Shown: piece by piece, positions 14,171 through 38,643 of the stretch
How positions within the stretch are numbered: the first letter of the stretch is position 1
Layout of the letters: each line of letters opens with the position of its first letter
Assembly (NCBI GenBank): GCA_021737275.1
Contig: JAIPEE010000012.1
Span: 1 to 64,000 of the forward strand
Direction of reading: 5' to 3'
Source of the DNA: Desulfobacterales bacterium
Lineage (GTDB): Bacteria > Desulfobacterota > Desulfobacteria > Desulfobacterales > JAIPEE01
DNA: 64,000 nt
The notes under the pieces: model-generated
Seen by the model: the letters and a program-made list of their open reading frames with translations, nothing else
Database searches by the model: none
Told to the model about the DNA's origin: nothing
Position numbers and translations under genes: made by a program

Positions 14171-14268
14171 GGAAGTGGACAGCTCACTGGTGGGGCTCCC
14201 GGACTTCAAATCCGGTGTGGGGCGCTAATCACGTCCCGGGTGGGTTCGATTCCCATGCACTTCCGCCA
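14171..14268 (+). tRNA. selC: tRNA-Sec (UCA anticodon)
   Basis: A 98-nt tRNA with encoded CCA. The acceptor arms GGAAGTG and CACTTCC pair, the anticodon loop CTTCAAA shows TCA (14206-14208), there is a long variable arm (about 14214-14240), and a standard T-arm with GGTTCGATTCC. The long acceptor/variable arm and UCA anticodon identify a selenocysteine tRNA, so the organism should decode some UGA codons. No selA, selB or selD and no obvious selenoprotein gene lies in the window. Its 3' end is the left edge of the accessory region. Confidence 0.95.
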
Positions 14269-21268: not shown

Positions 21269-21547
21269 TTATCCGAAATAAGCCAGCGCCTCTTTCAATT
21301 CTTTGTCAATGTCATTCATGAGACCATCCATTTCAGATTTGATTGTTTTCCAAGTACTTTCATCTGCTTTTTCCAGCTCCTCCTCTTTCGATCGGGCCTC
21401 CTGGTGTTTGCGGATGACAGCACCAACCTGTAAGGCGGGCCGGCGATCATTTATCAGCTCCTGTTTGATTTTAATCTCATTCAGTGTTTCACCAAATTTG
21501 GTGAGCCTGGCATTAATTTCAGCATTGTATTTCTCTTTTTCATTCAT
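21269..21547 (-). CDS. small coiled-coil protein (sll1863-like)
   Basis: 92 residues, almost wholly helical with heptads and highly charged, ending DGLMNDIDKELKEALAYF. It resembles the other small coiled-coil proteins of this region (29962-30255, 32157-32444, 32486-32941) in size and in the pattern of a charged helix followed by an S/A-W-K segment. I place it near the 'sll1863 family stress response' group with moderate confidence. GGAGAG lies five to six bases before the ATG at 21547, which is preferred to the upstream in-frame start. It has no signal peptide. Confidence 0.7.
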   Translation of the reverse strand: MNEKEKYNAEINARLTKFGETLNEIKIKQELINDRRPALQVGAVIRKHQEARSKEEELEKADESTWKTIKSEMDGLMNDIDKELKEALAYFG

Positions 21548-27687: not shown

Positions 27688-29973
27688 ATGTTGAAAAAAT
27701 GGCTGCCCTGGAAGTTTATTATAAAAAGAGCCGCAAGAGCCTATGGATTCCTGGATCCCATAACATTGCTGGCCCGGTTGCGCCGATTCGGCCATCCCTC
27801 GGAAGTACATGAACCGATTGAATTGATCCGGGCCGGTGTGGTTTTTCATGCCAGAGGGCTGGTCAACACACGTGCCATACAATACAACTTGGATTGGATC
27901 TGGCCTTTTTGGATTGTCAAACAGTTCAAACCTAATGATATATCTTTTATTCCCAGAGGATTCGCTTTCAGCCATGTCAACCTGACCCACCGTAACTGGA
28001 CGGCCGTGGGACATCCGGACCTGCCGCATTACCCCATCGTGGATCCGAGGGGATTGGTGACGCCCTATCTTGACAGCTGGTCGATCGATTGCTGGTTGCT
28101 GCCGGAAAATGGTCCTATGCTTGTTCCCTCAGAGGTCGAAAAGGTGCACCAGCGCCTCAATCTGGAAGACGATGCACTTTCCGTTTTCACTCGGACGCAA
28201 AAAGCGGGGCTACGGCTCGATACAACCGTGCGTGTAGATGAAACATCGGATGGTTGTCAAACACATATCCACGCCAGCGGTTTTGCTGAAAACGGCGGAT
28301 ATCTCGTTCTGGCTTTACGCCCCTATAACCCGGAAGGTATTCAGTTTATCGATTCAATTGCCTTTGATCAAGAAGATTGCTGTTTTTTAATCAATGGGCA
28401 GACTGGTGTTCATTTTAATCACGAACCGGAAAAAGTTATCTTCTCCAATTATGAAAAAGGTGATGTCGCCCATATCCTGGACCAGGCGGAACAGGAAACT
28501 GCTGTGAAATGTGATATCGGTATGGCCACGGCTGCAGCCATTTTCCCCGTCGCTAAAAAACGGACAACTGAAATTACGGTGTCGATGCCCCTGGTGGATG
28601 CAGCCGCAGCCAGTTCATCATCCTCCGAAACAGTCATCGGTGAATCACCGGTTCAAGGCTGGCAAAGCTGTCTTGATAACACCGCACGATTGAAAGTACC
28701 TGATGAAAAGATCCGGTTTCTCTATGATGCCGCCGTACGTACTATGCTGCTGTTGAGCGCGGGTAATGCCTACCCCGGCCCATATACATACAAACGCTTC
28801 TGGTTCAGGGATGCATGCTTGATGATCCATGCGCTATTGGCAATTGGCTTGTCCAAACGGGCGTCACGCATGATTTTAGACTTTCCTTCACGACAGACAT
28901 TGACGGGATATTTTCAATCTCAGGAAGGCGAATGGGATTCCAATGGCCAGGTTCTGTGGATTGCCGGCAGACTACACGAGCTAACCGGTATCACCTATGA
29001 CACGGCTTTTATAAAATCGATTTTCAAGGGAGCAAACTGGATTATCAATAAACGCAGCCAACTGGACACGGATAAACCTCATCACGGACTACTGCCTGCC
29101 GGCTTCAGCGCCGAACACCTGGGGCCCAATGATTATTATTATTGGGATAATTACTGGGGTTTGGCCGGGCTGCGCGCAGCCGGGCGGATGGCCGGTGATT
29201 ATAATTTTCATAAAGATCAGGATGAATTTTATCGTCAGGCAGCTGCCTTTCATCAACACATCATGAATAGCATTGATAAGGTTTCTGAAAAGAAAAGGCA
29301 AGGAGGTATTCCGGCATCTCCCTATCGGCGGATGGATGCAGGAGCGGTCGGGTCTATTGTGGCCGACTATCCCCTGCAGCTGACATTACCCAATGATCCC
29401 ATGATCATGAAGACCATCGCTTACCTGATGGAAAACTGTTTCCATTCCGGGGCATTTTTTCAGGATATGATCCACTCGGGGATCAATGTCTATCTGACGC
29501 TCGCGATTGCCCAAAGTCTTCTGCGGGCCGGAGATCCGACCTATCGACAACTGATTCAAACCGTCGCCGATCTGTCCACTCCGACCGGGCAGTGGCCTGA
29601 GGCCATCCATCCGTTTACCAGGGGCGGCTGCATGGGTGACGGCCAGCACGGTTGGGCGTCTGCCGAGTGGTTGATGATGATGCGTAATCTGTTCGTACGT
29701 GAAGAGGGCAATACAATAATTATCGGTTCGGGTATTTTCCCCAAATGGATTGAAAGCGGCAAGGAAATATCCTTCGGCCCCACCCTGATTCCCGGTGGGG
29801 AATTGACGGTAACCATGCGTGGTTCCGGCTCAGCCGTTTTTTTGGATCTCGATGTTGACAACCGTAATGCCGCCATCAATATAGTTGTGGCAATTCCAGG
29901 TTACCAGACACACAAGCTCTTTAATACGTGTCATGCGCTGGAAATCAAACGATTGCCTTTATCATTGTTTTAA
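27688..29973 (+). CDS. six-hairpin glycosidase (GH15/glucoamylase-like)
   Basis: 761 residues, no signal peptide visible. The N-terminal ~330 residues form a beta-rich domain of the sort that precedes the catalytic barrel in bacterial glucoamylase-like proteins. The C-terminal (alpha/alpha)6 domain has YKRFWFRDACLMIHALLAIG, SQEGEWDSNGQVLW (a likely catalytic Glu), YYWDNYWGLAGLRAAG and GQWPEAIHP. It probably hydrolyses an alpha-glucoside in the cytoplasm, perhaps recycling the product of the GT4 enzyme or a storage glucan. It starts 5 bp after the VTT gene and ends the operon, its 3' end overlapping a convergent coiled-coil gene by 12 bp. Confidence 0.8.
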   Translation: MLKKWLPWKFIIKRAARAYGFLDPITLLARLRRFGHPSEVHEPIELIRAGVVFHARGLVNTRAIQYNLDWIWPFWIVKQFKPNDISFIPRGFAFSHVNLTHRNWTAVGHPDLPHYPIVDPRGLVTPYLDSWSIDCWLLPENGPMLVPSEVEKVHQRLNLEDDALSVFTRTQKAGLRLDTTVRVDETSDGCQTHIHASGFAENGGYLVLALRPYNPEGIQFIDSIAFDQEDCCFLINGQTGVHFNHEPEKVIFSNYEKGDVAHILDQAEQETAVKCDIGMATAAAIFPVAKKRTTEITVSMPLVDAAAASSSSSETVIGESPVQGWQSCLDNTARLKVPDEKIRFLYDAAVRTMLLLSAGNAYPGPYTYKRFWFRDACLMIHALLAIGLSKRASRMILDFPSRQTLTGYFQSQEGEWDSNGQVLWIAGRLHELTGITYDTAFIKSIFKGANWIINKRSQLDTDKPHHGLLPAGFSAEHLGPNDYYYWDNYWGLAGLRAAGRMAGDYNFHKDQDEFYRQAAAFHQHIMNSIDKVSEKKRQGGIPASPYRRMDAGAVGSIVADYPLQLTLPNDPMIMKTIAYLMENCFHSGAFFQDMIHSGINVYLTLAIAQSLLRAGDPTYRQLIQTVADLSTPTGQWPEAIHPFTRGGCMGDGQHGWASAEWLMMMRNLFVREEGNTIIIGSGIFPKWIESGKEISFGPTLIPGGELTVTMRGSGSAVFLDLDVDNRNAAINIVVAIPGYQTHKLFNTCHALEIKRLPLSLF

Positions 29974-30255
29974 TTTGGATTGTGCAGACTGGATCGCATA
30001 TTTGAGAGAACCGGCAGCATTTTCGAAACCGGCTCTTAATTCTTTCCAGGCACTTTCTCCGGCCTGACGCAGGTTGTCGAGTTCTTCTTCAGTCGATTTG
30101 CGAATTGTTTTCAAGACTTCAATCTGTTCATTATATCGTTCCTGAATGTCAGCCTGTTTTTGTTTAGCTTCAGCCTCCAGTCCGGCAATTTCGGCATTCC
30201 ATTCATCCAGCTTGGCTTTCATTTTTTTTACGTATGCATCTCTGGTATTACTCAT
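29962..30255 (-). CDS. small coiled-coil protein (sll1863-like)
   Basis: 97 residues, helical throughout: AKLDEWNAEIAGLEAEA, a charged middle, then QAGESAWKELRAGFENAAGS, which closely matches the C-terminal motif of the proteins at 32157-32444 and 32486-32941. Family members are described as stress-response proteins (sll1863 type); the mechanism is unknown. GGAGG stands nine bases before the ATG at 30255, so the longer frame is not used. It is the last gene of a - strand set with the zinc-ribbon and PRC-barrel genes. Confidence 0.8.
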   Translation of the reverse strand: MSNTRDAYVKKMKAKLDEWNAEIAGLEAEAKQKQADIQERYNEQIEVLKTIRKSTEEELDNLRQAGESAWKELRAGFENAAGSLKYAIQSAQSKLKQ

Positions 30256-30296: not shown

Positions 30297-30842
30297 CTAC
30301 AATGGCAGCGATTTCTGTAGTCCCATAATGACACTTTTCAGCATAGGATGCTGAACAAATATCCGATGCCTGAGAAGTGCCAGCACCATTTTTAAATCTT
30401 GCCAATCGGAAACGATCGAATCTGATCCCGTCAGCATCTCTTTAGCTTGCTGCAGGCTGATTTTGACAAATTCAGGTGCTGATTTTTTATTAGCCTCATC
30501 AAGCAGAGCATTGACGAGATATAAAAACTGTCCGGCATCAAGCCACGTTCCATTACACGCCGTACAGATTTTGATTTCTACTGTAGATTGCGAATTCTTA
30601 ATCTTGGCCAAGGTAATATCGCGGCATTTCGGACATAAACTCAAAGCCTTGCCAGCCTGGAATTCGGCCTGCTCCTTCCAGGTTTCAATTTCCAGCCATC
30701 CCATATCCGGCAAGATCTCATCTTTAACATCCTCCAGTTGACCATTTTCAAACCACATTCCCTTGCAGCAGGAGCATTCACTGATGATGATGCCGTCGAT
30801 TGAGCTGCATTTCATAGGTTCTTTGCATTGAGGGCATTGCAT
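30297..30842 (-). CDS. zf-TFIIB-type double zinc-ribbon protein
   Basis: 181 residues with two zinc-ribbon units: CPQCKEPM...CSCCKGMWFENGQLE near the N-terminus and CPKCRDITL...CTACNGTWLDAGQ near residues 85-125. This is the zf-TFIIB family (often annotated as transcription factor zinc-finger proteins), with no proven role. A long in-frame extension exists upstream, but GGGAG sits about ten bases before the ATG at 30842 and the family normally starts at MxCPxC. It is 16 bp downstream of the PRC-barrel gene. Confidence 0.85.
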   Translation of the reverse strand: MQCPQCKEPMKCSSIDGIIISECSCCKGMWFENGQLEDVKDEILPDMGWLEIETWKEQAEFQAGKALSLCPKCRDITLAKIKNSQSTVEIKICTACNGTWLDAGQFLYLVNALLDEANKKSAPEFVKISLQQAKEMLTGSDSIVSDWQDLKMVLALLRHRIFVQHPMLKSVIMGLQKSLPL

Positions 30843-30858
30843 GGCAGACTTCTCCCTT

Positions 30859-31605
30859 TTAATCCCAGTATTTCGGGCGGCCGTAAAAATCATACATTCG
30901 TTCTTCATACTCACGATTCACCAGCATCGTCGGGTCATATTCCGGACTATTCCTGATTTGCTCACTGGTTAAATCAACACGCACATCTCTTTTCGCCCAG
31001 CTTACCTTATCAATCCAGTTGGGTGCTATCAGTACCTTCCTGCCCGGCAACCAATTGCGCGTATCAACAACCATATAATGGATGACCCATGTTTCGTCGT
31101 TTAGAATGAAATCCTCTACATGGCCCACAGCGTCGTCCAGGGCCTTGATGTGGTAGCCTGCCACCTCGTTTGCAGAACGAAGGTTGTCATTTCCTGAACG
31201 GGGCTCACTTTTTTCATTTTCTGATATTTTGTTACGATACAACAGGCCAGGATGGGTTGCAATTCCCCAAGGGTGTCTGCCAACCCAGTAATAAGGCCAT
31301 CCGTAATATCGGGTCCAGTTGAGTTCATGCTGGCGGCTGACCGGTGCGTCGCTGTCCAATACCGGTGCCCCTTCGATTCGTTCCTTGGTCAAGCGGATCG
31401 GAAAGGTTCTGGATTGCCAGTCCGGATCACCAAGTGATATCGGCGAAATAAGGACTTTTATTCCCGGCAGCCATTTTCCGGTATCCGCCACCATATAACG
31501 GATAGTCCACAGACGGTCGTCAAAGAGAAAATCTTTACAACGGCCGATTTCACCATCCTCTGCTAATAGAACATAATTATAAAGCCCTTTTACGCTTCGT
31601 AACAT
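30859..31605 (-). CDS. tandem PRC-barrel protein
   Basis: 248 residues containing two PRC-barrel units of about 75 residues. The first (about 1-80) has AEDGEIGRCKDFLFDDRLWTIRY, and the second (about 145-225) repeats the pattern with DDAVGHVEDFILNDETWVIHY. A tryptophan- and tyrosine-rich linker (WTRYYGWPYYWVG) joins them. PRC barrels bind RNA, protein or membrane partners, and tandem forms occur in stress gene clusters. GGAG lies seven bases before the ATG. It heads the - strand unit with the zinc-ribbon and coiled-coil genes. Confidence 0.87.
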   Translation of the reverse strand: MLRSVKGLYNYVLLAEDGEIGRCKDFLFDDRLWTIRYMVADTGKWLPGIKVLISPISLGDPDWQSRTFPIRLTKERIEGAPVLDSDAPVSRQHELNWTRYYGWPYYWVGRHPWGIATHPGLLYRNKISENEKSEPRSGNDNLRSANEVAGYHIKALDDAVGHVEDFILNDETWVIHYMVVDTRNWLPGRKVLIAPNWIDKVSWAKRDVRVDLTSEQIRNSPEYDPTMLVNREYEERMYDFYGRPKYWD

Positions 31606-32061
31606 TTTTTCTCCTTTCTGTGTTTAATGTGAATTGCAAACAGATAGCCTGCATCATCAATAACAAGCCACAGTTTTATTTATTCTTTTTCTCTCCGACA
31701 GAGGTTTAAGCCTGAAATCAGGAACCGCCGGATGCCGTCGAAACAGAATATGGTTTTCATAGTAACAGTATGCATAAAAAACAAAACCGGGTTTTCCATG
31801 TATATGGATCAGAAATTGACTGTATTTAAGGCCGATTGCCCGACCGTTCAGTCTTTTTAAGACGGCATATAACTGTGGAGATTAGGAAGAATTCGTCTGA
31901 ATAATAAATGCTGTTTTTTTTGAAGCAAACTAAACCCTTCACCTGATGGTTTTTTTTTATAGGTGAATTAATATAAACTAAAATTTAGAGTTTCATAAAG
32001 CAGACAGGAAAAGCTTCATCGCAAAATAGGAAATGCTTCGGCCTGCCGCTTATCTCCAATG
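31606..32061. other. intergenic region left of the cassette
   Basis: About 460 bases between the PRC-barrel gene and the cassette boundary. No gene could be supported. The right end includes an attC-like stem (31998-32067, described separately). The remainder shows short interrupted frames. Confidence 0.45.
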
Positions 32062-32067
32062 TTAGGC
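31998..32067 (+). repeat. degenerate attC-like recombination site (left cassette boundary)
   Basis: The right end reads CAATGTTAGGC, an exact attC R' core (GTTRRRY) at 32061-32067. Upstream, AAGCAGACAGG...AAGC can pair with GCTT...CCTGCCGCTT, giving a stem with an unpaired A and mismatches, as attC arms have. The matching left core (RYYYAAC) is not recognisable, so this is either a worn attC or another recombination site. Confidence 0.42.
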
Positions 32068-32156
32068 ATACAAAAGAAAGGGGGTACAAGCGAAAAATCC
32101 GAAATGTTGACAGTGCAGAAGTTCTATTAACAACCTTACTAAACAGGAGAAAAACC

Positions 32157-32444
32157 ATGAGCATGAAAGAAGCATACGAACAGAAACTTCAAGCGCAATT
32201 AGACAAGTGGAGTGCGGAGATCGACAAACTCAAGGCAAAAGCCGACAGTGCAGACGCTGATGCACAACTTGAATACTATAAGAAGATTGAGGAACTGCGG
32301 TCTATGCAGGAAACTGCCACTAATAAGCTTACCGAGCTTAAAGATGCTGGTGACGATGCTTGGGAGGACCTTAAAGCAGGTATTGATAGCGCGTGGAACT
32401 CTCTCGGTAATGCATTGAAGTCTGCTGCTTCGAGATTCAAGTAA
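32157..32444 (+). CDS. small coiled-coil protein (sll1863-like), cassette gene 1
   Basis: 95 residues, almost entirely amphipathic helix: AQLDKWSAEIDKLKAKAD, a charged centre, and LKDAGDDAWEDLKAGIDSAW. It aligns along most of its length with the protein at 29962-30255 and shares the AW-(K)DLK-AG motif. No signal peptide, so cytoplasmic. AGGAG precedes the ATG by eight bases. It is 41 bp before the second cassette gene and is probably co-transcribed with it. Assigned to the sll1863-type stress-response family; the biochemical role is unknown. Confidence 0.82.
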   Translation: MSMKEAYEQKLQAQLDKWSAEIDKLKAKADSADADAQLEYYKKIEELRSMQETATNKLTELKDAGDDAWEDLKAGIDSAWNSLGNALKSAASRFK

Positions 32445-32485
32445 ACATCATACTTGATCGCAACCAACAATTAAGGAGGTTACAA

Positions 32486-32941
32486 ATGAAATCAAACATC
32501 TGCGCATTGATGTTGATCGGCATACTTGGTGTTACTCCGCTCTGCTATGCCCAAACGGAAAACACAAACACTTCAATAGAAGAGGTTAAGAGAGAAACTC
32601 AGGATTTGCTTCAAACTATCGGTTCATATACTGCCGATAAAAGAGATGAAGCAGTTCAAAAAGCAAAACAGGGCCTGGATAGGCTGGATAAAAGTATCGA
32701 TGCGCTGGAGGCGAGGATTGATAAAAACTGGGACAAAATGAACGCGGCCGCGCGTAAAGATGCTCGTGAGAGCCTTAAGGCGCTTCGCAAGCAACGGAAT
32801 CAAGTTGCCGAATGGTATGGCAGCATGAAAACCAGCTCAGCCGATGCGTGGGACCACATAAAAAAAGGCTTCTCTGATGCATATAAGGCTCTTGAAGATG
32901 CCTGGGAAAAGTCAGAAAAAGAATTTAGCCCCAAAAAATAA
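32486..32941 (+). CDS. exported coiled-coil protein, cassette gene 2
   Basis: 151 residues. A signal peptide (about 1-22, ending LCYAQ) directs it to the periplasm. The rest is helical and highly charged, with ALEARIDKNWDKM and, near the end, SADAWDHIKKGFSDAYKAL, the same AW...KGF motif as the cytoplasmic coiled-coil relatives in this region. So a cytoplasmic and a periplasmic version of one fold sit side by side. AAGGAGG lies six to seven bases before the ATG. The stop codon is five bases from the attC site. Confidence 0.8.
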   Translation: MKSNICALMLIGILGVTPLCYAQTENTNTSIEEVKRETQDLLQTIGSYTADKRDEAVQKAKQGLDRLDKSIDALEARIDKNWDKMNAAARKDARESLKALRKQRNQVAEWYGSMKTSSADAWDHIKKGFSDAYKALEDAWEKSEKEFSPKK

Positions 32942-32945
32942 ACTG

Positions 32946-33032
32946 GCCTAACAACCGCTTTAACTCGGACTGGGAAAAGTTGCGCCGTTTCGCTATGCAG
33001 CTTTTCCCAGCCGATTATGTGAAGCGTTAGGC
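32946..33032 (+). repeat. attC site (59-base element)
   Basis: An 87-bp site with GCCTAAC (32946-32952) and GTTAGGC (33026-33032) as outer cores. The inner arms TCGG-A-CTGGGAAAAG and CTTTTCCCAG-CCGA pair perfectly apart from one extra A, the extrahelical base typical of attC. The end ...AAGCGTTAGGC and the start GCCTAACAA match well-known cassette sites. It lies immediately after a cassette-like gene. Confidence 0.82.
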
Positions 33033-33357
33033 TCAAAGAAAATAGCAGTTTTTTACAGCTTCAACAAAACGATGAATATGAAATAAGTAGAATATTTGCT
33101 TGTTAAGAACTTTGATTGGTGCTTTGTATTTTAATGGTGGTACTTGAAAATATAAAAAGGACCGAGAAACGTTTAATGATCGCCGTCATTTTTCAGATTT
33201 CCCGGTGGGGCAATATACTCATCTCCTTCGGGTTTAACGGTATCAAAAAAAGCATTTGTCGGATGACGGAGAACGTATTACAACAATTTAAAAACTGATG
33301 CTCATATATTGCGAAAACAACCCGTTATGAGAAGAAAAAATCGTTACAGGCCGGATC
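33033..33357. other. intergenic region after the attC site
   Basis: About 325 bases to the end of the histidine kinase gene. A 60-codon frame at 33116-33298 lacks a ribosome site and resembles nothing I know. No further attC core was found here. Confidence 0.4.
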
Positions 33358-34578
33358 CTAAATGGGAAGGATAGCTTTAATCCTGGTTCCCTTGCCAATT
33401 TGCGAATCAATATTAAAGGAACCACCGAAGATTTCACAACGTTCACGCATGGCGGTCAGGCCGTATCCGCTCAGGGGGTCTTTTTCAGAAAGTGCCTCTC
33501 TGACGTCAAAGCCCCGGCCATCGTCTTCAATAAACAGAGAGATCGATCGGTTTTCATCGCTATATACCAGCTGCAGACGGACCGAGACGGCCTCACTGTG
33601 CTTTTCGGCATTGCTCAAACCTTCCTGTATAATACGATAAATAATAATTTTCACCACTTCGGGGACATCTTCTTCAGCTATTTCCGTATTGTAATCGACA
33701 CGGATATTCCGATAAAGTCTTTGAAACTGACGGAGATACCACTGGATGGTGGCCATCAGCCCCAGATCGTCCATCGTCGTCGGACGGAGATTGGCAGAAA
33801 TTCGTTTGGTTTCTTTAATGGTCGCCAGAAGGTAGGCAATCTCCTGATCCAGAGATTCATCCAGCCGGTCATGATTTTGTTGCCGCTTCATCTCTTTTCC
33901 TTCAAGGCTGAATTTAATGGCCGCTAAACTGACACCGATGCTATCGTGCAGTTCCTTGGAAATTGTACGCCGATCTGCCTCCAGCACATCCAGCGTCCGC
34001 CTGGACATTTTTTTCAGACGTTCCCGGGAAAGGGTCAATGTATCACTCATTCTTTTTCGTTCGGCAACTTCACTTTCCAGGGCACTAATCGTGGCATTGA
34101 GCGCTTTTGTTCTTCTGGAAACTTCTGTTTCAAGCCGGCTCATTACAGATTCCAAATGCTGTTCGCGTTCCACGGTTTGAGTGGCATCTGATGCGATAAT
34201 AATGAACATACGCCGGTCGTCTGTAGTCAAGCCCAGTGATGAAATAAAGAGATCCCAGGTCAGCATTTGGCCATTGGGCGTTTTTAACGAAATATATAAT
34301 GGTTTCCGTCTTTTTTCCGGTTCGAACAGGCTGTTGAAATGCTTTTCGGTCCCATCGGTGGAAGACATCGAAAAGTGTTCGGCCCATAAGTCCATGGTCG
34401 GAATCTCTTGATGGGCTAACCCGGTTGCGGACTGAAAAGCACGGTTTATCATCAAAATATGTCCATCATCACACACTATGAGAATTGGTACTGGTGCACT
34501 AAGCAGTGCCTGAAAATAAGGGGTTTCGATGTTGAAACTGAAAACCTCACCATCATCGGGTCTTATTTTCTCTGACAT
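33358..34578 (-). CDS. PAS-containing NarX/DegS-type sensor histidine kinase
   Basis: 406 residues without membrane segments, so a cytoplasmic sensor. A PAS-like domain (about 20-140; LLSAPVPILIVCDDGHILMINRAF) is followed by a coiled-coil, the HisKA_3 dimerisation helix with the phospho-His in RRTISKELHDSIG (about 210), and an HATPase domain (NAEKHS as N-box, DDGRGFD as G1). It should phosphorylate the LuxR-type regulator encoded 77 bp upstream on the same strand. The signal sensed is unknown; PAS domains often bind haem, flavin or small molecules. Confidence 0.88.
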   Translation of the reverse strand: MSEKIRPDDGEVFSFNIETPYFQALLSAPVPILIVCDDGHILMINRAFQSATGLAHQEIPTMDLWAEHFSMSSTDGTEKHFNSLFEPEKRRKPLYISLKTPNGQMLTWDLFISSLGLTTDDRRMFIIIASDATQTVEREQHLESVMSRLETEVSRRTKALNATISALESEVAERKRMSDTLTLSRERLKKMSRRTLDVLEADRRTISKELHDSIGVSLAAIKFSLEGKEMKRQQNHDRLDESLDQEIAYLLATIKETKRISANLRPTTMDDLGLMATIQWYLRQFQRLYRNIRVDYNTEIAEEDVPEVVKIIIYRIIQEGLSNAEKHSEAVSVRLQLVYSDENRSISLFIEDDGRGFDVREALSEKDPLSGYGLTAMRERCEIFGGSFNIDSQIGKGTRIKAILPI

Positions 34579-36523: not shown

Positions 36524-38643
36524 TCATTTATTTAACATTTTTGCATTAATTGCCACAATAACAGTTGAAAGCGACATTACCACGGCACCGGCTGCGGGAG
36601 GGAGAAGAAGCTGGTAAAACGGATATAAAATTCCAGCGGCCAGCGGTATGGCAAAGGCATTGTATCCAGTAGCCCACCACAGGTTCTGAACCATCTTTGC
36701 ATAGGTTACGATAGACAACTCAATGACGGTGGCAACATCTCCGGGATCGGAACGAACCAACACCATATCAGCGGCTTCCATGGCCACGTCTGTACCAGCC
36801 CCAATGCCGATACCAACATCGGCCTGGGCCAGGGCGGGGGCATCGTTTATTCCGTCTCCTACCATAGCGGTTTTCAGTCCTTTATCCATGATCTTTTTAA
36901 TTTGCGTCGCTTTTCCGTCCGGCAGAACTTCAGCAAAATAATCATCCAGATTCAGCTTCTTTGCCACTTTTTCTGCCACCGCTTTTGAATCGCCGGTGAG
37001 CATCATGACCTTCAATCCCATCTCCTTTAATCGGGATACCGCTTTTTCGGCAGACTGGCGAACAATATCTTCCAAGGCCAATGCGCCTTCAAGAAGGTTG
37101 TCCACTAAAAGATAAACAACCGTTTTACCCTCGTCTGCCAGTTGTTTAACCGTGTTATTGTCAATGCTGATATCATTTTCATCTAAATATCCGGGACTGA
37201 CGACCTTGATGTTTTTTCCATCAGCAATTGCTTCCGCCCCTTTTCCCGGAATAGCATTAAAATTTTTCGAATCGATAAGATCTATGTCGCGATCCATGGC
37301 CGCATCCACAATTCCGCGGGCAATGGCATGCTCGGAATGATTTTCCAGCCCGGCAGCCAGCTTAAGAATGTCGTCTTCGGACCGATCGTTTAAAGAAACA
37401 ATATTCGACACACCGAAACGCCCTTCCGTTAAGGTGCCGGTTTTATCAAAAACAATCACGTCAAGATCTTTTGCTTTTTCAAATGCCGTCCGGTTCCTGA
37501 TCAAAAGACCCTTTTTTGCGGCCATGGCAGTGGATACCGCCACCACCAGGGGTACGGCCAGACCCAGTGCATGAGGACAGGTGATTACCATCACTGTGAC
37601 CATCCGTTCCAGCGAAAATACAAACTCTCGGTCGGCCAGCAGCCAGGCAAGCAATGTCACTACCCCTGATGTCAGAGCAATGATGGTCAGCCAAAAGGCG
37701 GCCCGATCCGCTGTGTTCTGCGCTTTGGAGCCGGATTCCTGAGCCTTTTTAACCATATGGACCACCTGGGAGAGATAGGTTTCATCACCGGTTTTTTGAA
37801 TATTTATCTCAATGGCGGAATCTCCGTTGACACTGCCGCCGATCACTTCGTCGCCCTCGCTTTTTTCCACCTGCCTGCTTTCGCCGGTAACCATGGATTC
37901 ATCAATGCTTGTGCGTCCATCCACAATGACACCGTCCGTGGGAATTTTTTCCCCGGGTTTGACTGCCACACGGTCGTCAGGCTTCAGGTCGGAAACCGTC
38001 ACTTCCTCAGTTTTACCATCTTTAGTGATGCGATGCGCTTTTGACGGAATCAGCTTAACCAGTTCCTCTAAAGCCCCGGAAGCCCCCATCACGGACCGCA
38101 TTTCAATCCAGTGGCCGAGAAGCATAATGTCGATCAGGGTGGCCAGCTCCCAGAAAAAAACTTTTCCCGGCAAACCGAAGACAACTGCACTGCTATAAGT
38201 ATATGCCACAAGAACTGCCATACCGATCAGGGTCATCATGCCCGGTTCTTTTTTTTTCAGTTCATCAAAAAGCCCTTTTAAAAAAGGCCAGCCCCCGTAA
38301 AAAAAACAATGGTGGCAAAACCGAACTGGATATAGCTGTCGCCGGCAAAATCCCATTTGCTCTTAACATCCATAAATTCCTGGATGAGAGGCGCCAGCAG
38401 GACGACCGGGATGCTAAAAGCAAGAGAAACCCAGAACCGAAGCCTGAAGTCGACTACCATGTGTGCATGGTGGTTCTGATGGTCCTCGTGTTCACTATGA
38501 TCGCCATTATTTTCATGGCTCTTGTGATTTTTGTAATTCCCATGATCCTTATGGTTATTGCTATGTTGATTATTATGCTTTTCATGGTCACTACGGCCAT
38601 CTTGCGGAGTGTCATGATTCTGTTGATCTGAAGATTTACTCAT
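36524..38643 (-). pseudogene. copB: CopB-type copper P-type ATPase, split by a frameshift
   Basis: Two adjacent frames together encode a complete P1B-type ATPase. 38278-38643 holds the His-rich N-terminus (14 His in about 60 residues) and the first membrane segment, ending ATIVFFTGAGLF. The frame from about 38356 to 36524 continues with FFYGGWPFLKGLFDELKKK and carries TGES, the CPH motif (ITCPHALGL), DKTGTLTEGR and GDGINDAP. CPH plus the His-rich N-terminus points to the P1B-3 CopB group (Cu export). The break is at a run of 8 A (38300-38307; T8 in the message), where 9 would restore one frame. It may be a mutation, sequencing error, or slippage site. Confidence 0.82.

Follow-up and report, generated by a model that had tools for sequence, protein, structure and literature searches.

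A stranded integron-type gene cassette with a two-gene, sll1863-family cargo in a Desulfobacterales genome

In the 64-kb stretch of a Desulfobacterales genome that we analyzed (the window, on contig C37), there are only two + strand copies of the heptamer GTTAGGC, at 32061 and 33026. Is the DNA between the two copies a mobile gene cassette of an integron, and how would it have come to stand there? A reading made from the sequence alone had described it as an integron-type cassette with a cytoplasmic/periplasmic pair of stress coiled-coil genes and without an integrase. Our analysis supports the central part of this description, because an attC-type site was found at each end and a predicted cytoplasmic/exported pair of sll1863-family genes lies inside. 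The segment is very probably a 965-bp integron gene cassette with a two-gene operon, an intact attC behind it and, ahead of it, what remains of the attC of the preceding cassette. As these two sites bound it, we regard it as a surviving member of a former array. The relevant features are the following.

21275-21547, - strand: sll1863-like gene
29962-30252, - strand: sll1863-like gene, in a cluster with two others (zinc-ribbon, 30300-30845; PRC-barrel, 30862-31605)
31976-32002, + strand: outer ~25 bp at the end of an IS-like repeat that is dispersed in the genome (CTAAAATTTAGAGTTTCATAAAGCA); adjoins the truncated attC in place of its R'' side
31995-32067, + strand: truncated upstream attC, with L''-like AAGCAG-A-CAGG, L' (CCGCTT...) at 32046-32060, R' (GTTAGGC) at 32061-32067 and no R''
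32062-33026, + strand: very probable gene cassette, 965 bp, as excisable by cuts between G and TTAGGC at the two cores (32061 and 33026)
32157-32444, + strand: ORF1, 95 aa, sll1863 family, without signal peptide (NF052504, 127.4 bits, cut-off 35)
32486-32941, + strand: ORF2, 151 aa, sll1863 family, with a Sec-type signal peptide as judged by eye (NF052504, 46.5 bits, cut-off 35)
32946-33032, + strand: intact attC, with R'' at 32946-32952, extrahelical A at 32969, L' from 33011 and R' at 33026-33032

The site at 32946-33032 is a genuine attC site. Its cores are exact (GCCTAAC at 32946-32952 and GTTAGGC at 33026-33032), and its inner stem consists of CTGGGAAAAG/CTTTTCCCAG and TCGG/CCGA with a single extrahelical A at 32969. 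The stop codon of ORF2 (32939-32941) ends 4 bases before R'', and the site scores best on the gene's own strand. Cores, stem, extrahelical base and adjoining stop codon are thus all as the sequence-only reading had listed them. That reading had also named a low covariance score as something that would count against it. The score was high (34.3 bits, E 4.7e-6, + strand), and no other match up to E 10 was found in the window. To avoid circularity, the window site was kept out of the covariance model. Its training set was 11 other attC sites, taken from plasmid-borne class 1 integrons and from integrons that adjoin integrase genes in other genomes. The training sites were cut to equal length by shortening the central loop and by dropping, or padding with N, up to 3 bases in low-information spacers. 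In the whole genome (4.26 Mb) the model gave nine matches, among which the window site ranked first, followed by C49:2017-2100 (31.2 bits) and C12:3655-3733 (29.9 bits).

A second, independent custom scorer, which works on untrimmed sites, gave 52.5 for the same site and 25.5 for the next unrelated position in the window. Maxima in 15 random 64-kb sequences were 17-35, and left-out real cassette attC sites ranged from about 19 to 54. When folded as DNA, the bottom strand of the site reached -23.1 kcal/mol (z -5.7), and none of 200 shuffled sequences folded as well. The pattern GCSTAAC...GTTRGGC had no match in the genome besides this site. An Rfam scan of the window returned only two tRNAs and no attC family. 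A selenocysteine tRNA gene lies at 14171-14264 (+ strand).

The absence of an integrase holds for the contig and not for the genome. On C37, no match to TIGR02249 was found at E<=0.001; the assembly is fragmented (104 contigs), so linkage to a contig with an integrase is possible. Elsewhere the genome encodes three integron integrases that exceed the NCBIfam cut-off (C1:6147-7094, C32:77992-78930 and C63:203814-204734), and it has no fewer than two other attC sites with good scores. The cassette is therefore orphaned locally but not globally. Integron integrases over the cut-off are present in 92 of 194 relatives from the same order, so that finding them in the host says little by itself. The integrase on C1 (region L013:1-7735) has short cassette-like genes beside it, together with attC sites of the GTTATGC type and an ORF of reverse-transcriptase-like sequence. 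This ORF (562 aa) is inserted after an attC-like site, and the insertion resembles an attC-associated group II intron.

The upstream GTTAGGC core that the sequence-only reading had pointed out at 32061-32067 is real and belongs to a truncated attC. With a two-part profile, the position 32061 was the best right half of an attC (L' and R') in the entire window (20.3, next 15.4). The covariance model did not match the truncated site. In the same genome (G000), 31995-32067 was 84% identical over 58 bp to C12:212-269 and 80% identical to C3:243-305. Both places are attC-like, and that on C3 also matches the covariance model. Because of this resemblance, the left end, as far as its sequence tells, is the right part of the attC of a former neighbouring cassette, with the R'' side missing.

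These same parts bear on another explanation, in which an integrase acting in trans inserted the cassette at a lone non-classical (attG-type) site, so that it was never in an array. Among the described origins of integrase-less attC clusters is off-target insertion (PMC8618304), attG sites are on record (PMC12901181), and three integrases are present in trans here. The left boundary is, however, no bare GTT site. Preserved in it are L', the inner stem and a portion of L'', from an attC that is related to two others in the genome, and these fit a former neighbouring cassette better than an insertion at attG. We consider off-target insertion unlikely and prefer the former array.

In place of the R'' side, the end of a dispersed repeat was found at 31976-32002. 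At E<=1 it matched the genome at about 20 places, some 15 of which were repeat ends. They sit mostly ~110-130 bases from contig ends, so the repeat is probably an insertion sequence. The right flank (33033-33358) contained no repeat of note. Many contigs of the assembly (C49, C29, C50, C34, C15, C20, C16, C98, C83 and others; L225-L239) end in a repeat beginning with CTATAGTTTAGAGTTTCATAA or CTAAAGTTTAGAGTTTCATAA, which is probably an insertion sequence in high copy number at which the assembly breaks. A P-type ATPase gene at 36524-38356 (- strand) is listed in a frame with an odd N-terminus and may be frameshifted or truncated.

The cargo was only partly as first described. Both proteins belong to the sll1863 family and one is predicted to be exported, but compact helix bundles were predicted and not extended coiled coils. 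ORF1 was modelled as a three-helix bundle (pLDDT 90.8) and ORF2 as a signal peptide followed by a four-helix bundle (pLDDT 85; helices 25-47, 50-80, 87-116 and 122-147). The motif AEWYGSMK is conserved in the alignment of ORF2. Each ORF has its own ribosome-binding site, with 42 bases between the ORFs; a scan for sigma-70 promoters found nothing convincing inside the cassette. Sequence and fold searches against the PDB returned generic helix bundles only (FAT domains and designed proteins, for example), which were uninformative on function. We infer a stress role from family membership. In Synechocystis, the founding proteins Sll1862 and Sll1863 are among the most salt-induced ones, yet their inactivation led to no salt-sensitive phenotype (PMC8670252).

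The closest relatives of the pair are in distant taxa. ORF2 was 85% identical to a homologue in a Desulfobacteraceae genome, 83% in Candidatus Nitrotoga (a betaproteobacterium), 79% in Motilimonas cestriensis (a gammaproteobacterium) and 75% in a Desulfobulbaceae genome, and ORF1 was 84-87% identical to copies in other, distant bacteria. At the DNA level, the pair was 80-84% identical over about 800 bases to Motilimonas, Nitrotoga, Desulfobacteraceae and Desulfobulbaceae. These matches stay inside the cassette (32119-32959). The alignments stop at 32926-32959, at or just past R''; only that with L076, whose contig starts within ORF2, reaches 32998. In two samples drawn from the window's order and phylum, all relatives were at most 52% identical except G075 (85%) and G070 (66%). 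In the tree, the window's copy fell in a clade (support 99/98) that mixes Pseudomonadota, Campylobacterota and Thermodesulfobacteriota. From these comparisons we infer that the cassette arrived by horizontal transfer and has moved between phyla. No ORF2 relative was found in phages and viral contigs, and plasmids gave a single one, with 49% identity, on a Photobacterium replicon of 1.7 Mb. The assembly of an environmental nitrite oxidiser, Candidatus Nitrotoga sp. M5 (L078), contains a complete integron integrase that is 100% identical over 337 aa to the clinical class 1 IntI1, which may be contamination.

Many other relatives of ORF2 lack a neighbouring attC (in Chromatiaceae, Photobacterium, Alteromonadaceae and the greater part of the window's order), so these genes also live as ordinary chromosomal genes. 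The pair might then be a non-mobile chromosomal stress operon that came to lie by chance between an attC-like hairpin and a GTTAGGC heptamer. We regard such a coincidence as very improbable. It is contradicted by the E value of the attC (4.7e-6, for the highest-scoring site of the genome), by the second core, whose surrounding sequence is homologous to further attC-like sites in this genome, and by the cross-phylum DNA identity of 80-84% that is confined within the cassette boundaries. A cassette remains our reading.

The sequence-only reading had further proposed that a locally duplicated stress gene was packaged into a cassette. The window indeed has the two further sll1863-like genes listed above, and its PRC-barrel gene (30862-31605) is of the kind that directly precedes the pair in two relatives, L047 and L049; the window's gene lies outside the cassette in the opposite direction. 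The nearer paralogue (29962-30252), although of the same family, is only 39-40% identical to ORF1, as against 84-87% for the copies in distant taxa, so the cargo did not come from this gene. In the tree the paralogue sits on a long branch of its own, weakly grouped with L053 and not with ORF1. With the distant homology lying inside the cassette boundaries, local packaging is refuted for these paralogues and can hardly have occurred.

Traces of attC were found beside some relatives of the pair. R''-like boxes lie 7-10 bases after the stop codon of the ORF2 homologue in L047, L048, L051, L055, L070 and L076. L047 retains a whole stem with other arm sequences (CTCCCCAAA/TTTGGGGAG instead of CTGGGAAAAG/CTTTTCCCAG), and L049 still has the L'-R' part ending in GTTAGGC. 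In L070, the ORF2 homologue is preceded by a cassette-type, Lcl_C-like gene (labelled after the family of its counterpart in L050) and an attC of 23.1 bits. The R''-like boxes of L051 and L055, like one in L071, came with no convincing fold. Local blastn of the downstream regions against the window attC gave weak results except for L076 and L070. Beside more distant homologues, no attC was found at 37 loci (38 in the set, with L050 counted apart).

An empty site would read ...CTCCAATG joined to TTAGGCTCAAAG. No close relative with such a site was found, nor did a syntenic look-up through the PRC-barrel neighbour return one. In the comparison of related genomes, as suggested in the sequence-only reading, the pair recurs in distant phyla with attC sites or remnants after ORF2, and in L070 with the attC of an upstream neighbour, but an empty site with clean ends did not appear.

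Several states of the pair were seen: a plain chromosomal operon, a pair preceded by a PRC-barrel gene with partial attC (L047 and L049), decayed attC remnants (L048 and L070), and a complete attC in the window and perhaps also in L076. It is possible, and we put this forward tentatively, that the pair has been caught at stages of becoming and ceasing to be a cassette, as a two-compartment stress module spread between phyla by integrons. If the proposal is true, the pair would be a natural series for the birth and death of cassettes. In most chromosomal cassettes the cargo has no known role, and it is an open question how a gene comes by its attC. Here relatives have no, partial and complete attC, so the order of events can be compared directly.

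The history of the locus was probably as follows. The cassette would have come by horizontal transfer, and IntI would have inserted it beside another cassette of an array of the host. Later, an IS-like element and a deletion may have taken the left part of the neighbouring attC, resulting in a short orphan array; this order of events is our reconstruction. With IntI supplied by another part of the genome, the intact attC could still be cut in its folded bottom strand, between G and TT. The left boundary without R'' should now be a poor recombination partner, which probably leaves the cassette fixed or almost fixed. Its products, ORF1 in the cytoplasm and ORF2, once exported, in the periplasm, may serve as small helical-bundle proteins of the general stress response.

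How does the locus compare with known systems? Like the cassettes of chromosomal and class 1 integrons, it has a short unit, a stop codon beside attC, the R''/L''/L'/R' boxes, one extrahelical base, a cut between G and TTRRRY, a coding sequence that ends near attC in cassette orientation, a second core at the other end, and a score within the range of class 1 attC sites. In contrast to them, it has two genes where one is usual, and its contig has neither an integrase nor an attI, so that no intI and attI adjoin the cassette as in a complete integron. The earlier view that two-gene cassettes outside an intact integron are uncommon has to be softened, since two-ORF cassettes and attC clusters without an integrase have both been described (PMC8618304, PMC9024848).

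Like a CALIN, the locus has attC sites with no adjoining integrase and with integrases elsewhere in the genome. IntegronFinder 2.0 calls a CALIN from at least two detectable attC sites with no integrase nearby (PMC9024848), whereas here a single site passes the threshold of the covariance model, the other being truncated; as the left attC has no match to the model, the strict two-attC call fails. The locus is thus a short, damaged, integrase-less, CALIN-like remnant that holds a stranded cassette, which is a known kind of element. It shows a cassette stranded beside an IS-like end while the genome still encodes integron integrases.

Both cassette proteins exceed the cut-off of the sll1863 family (NF052504), the best-known case of which is the Synechocystis pair Sll1862 and Sll1863; Sll1862 may also be a relative of ORF2. 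The known Synechocystis genes are chromosomal, whereas here the pair is cassette-borne and one member has a predicted signal peptide. The cassette is unusual in its cargo and in its trans-phylum spread: it carries a recognisable stress-family cargo that is common to Desulfobacterota, Betaproteobacteria and Gammaproteobacteria at 80-84% DNA identity.
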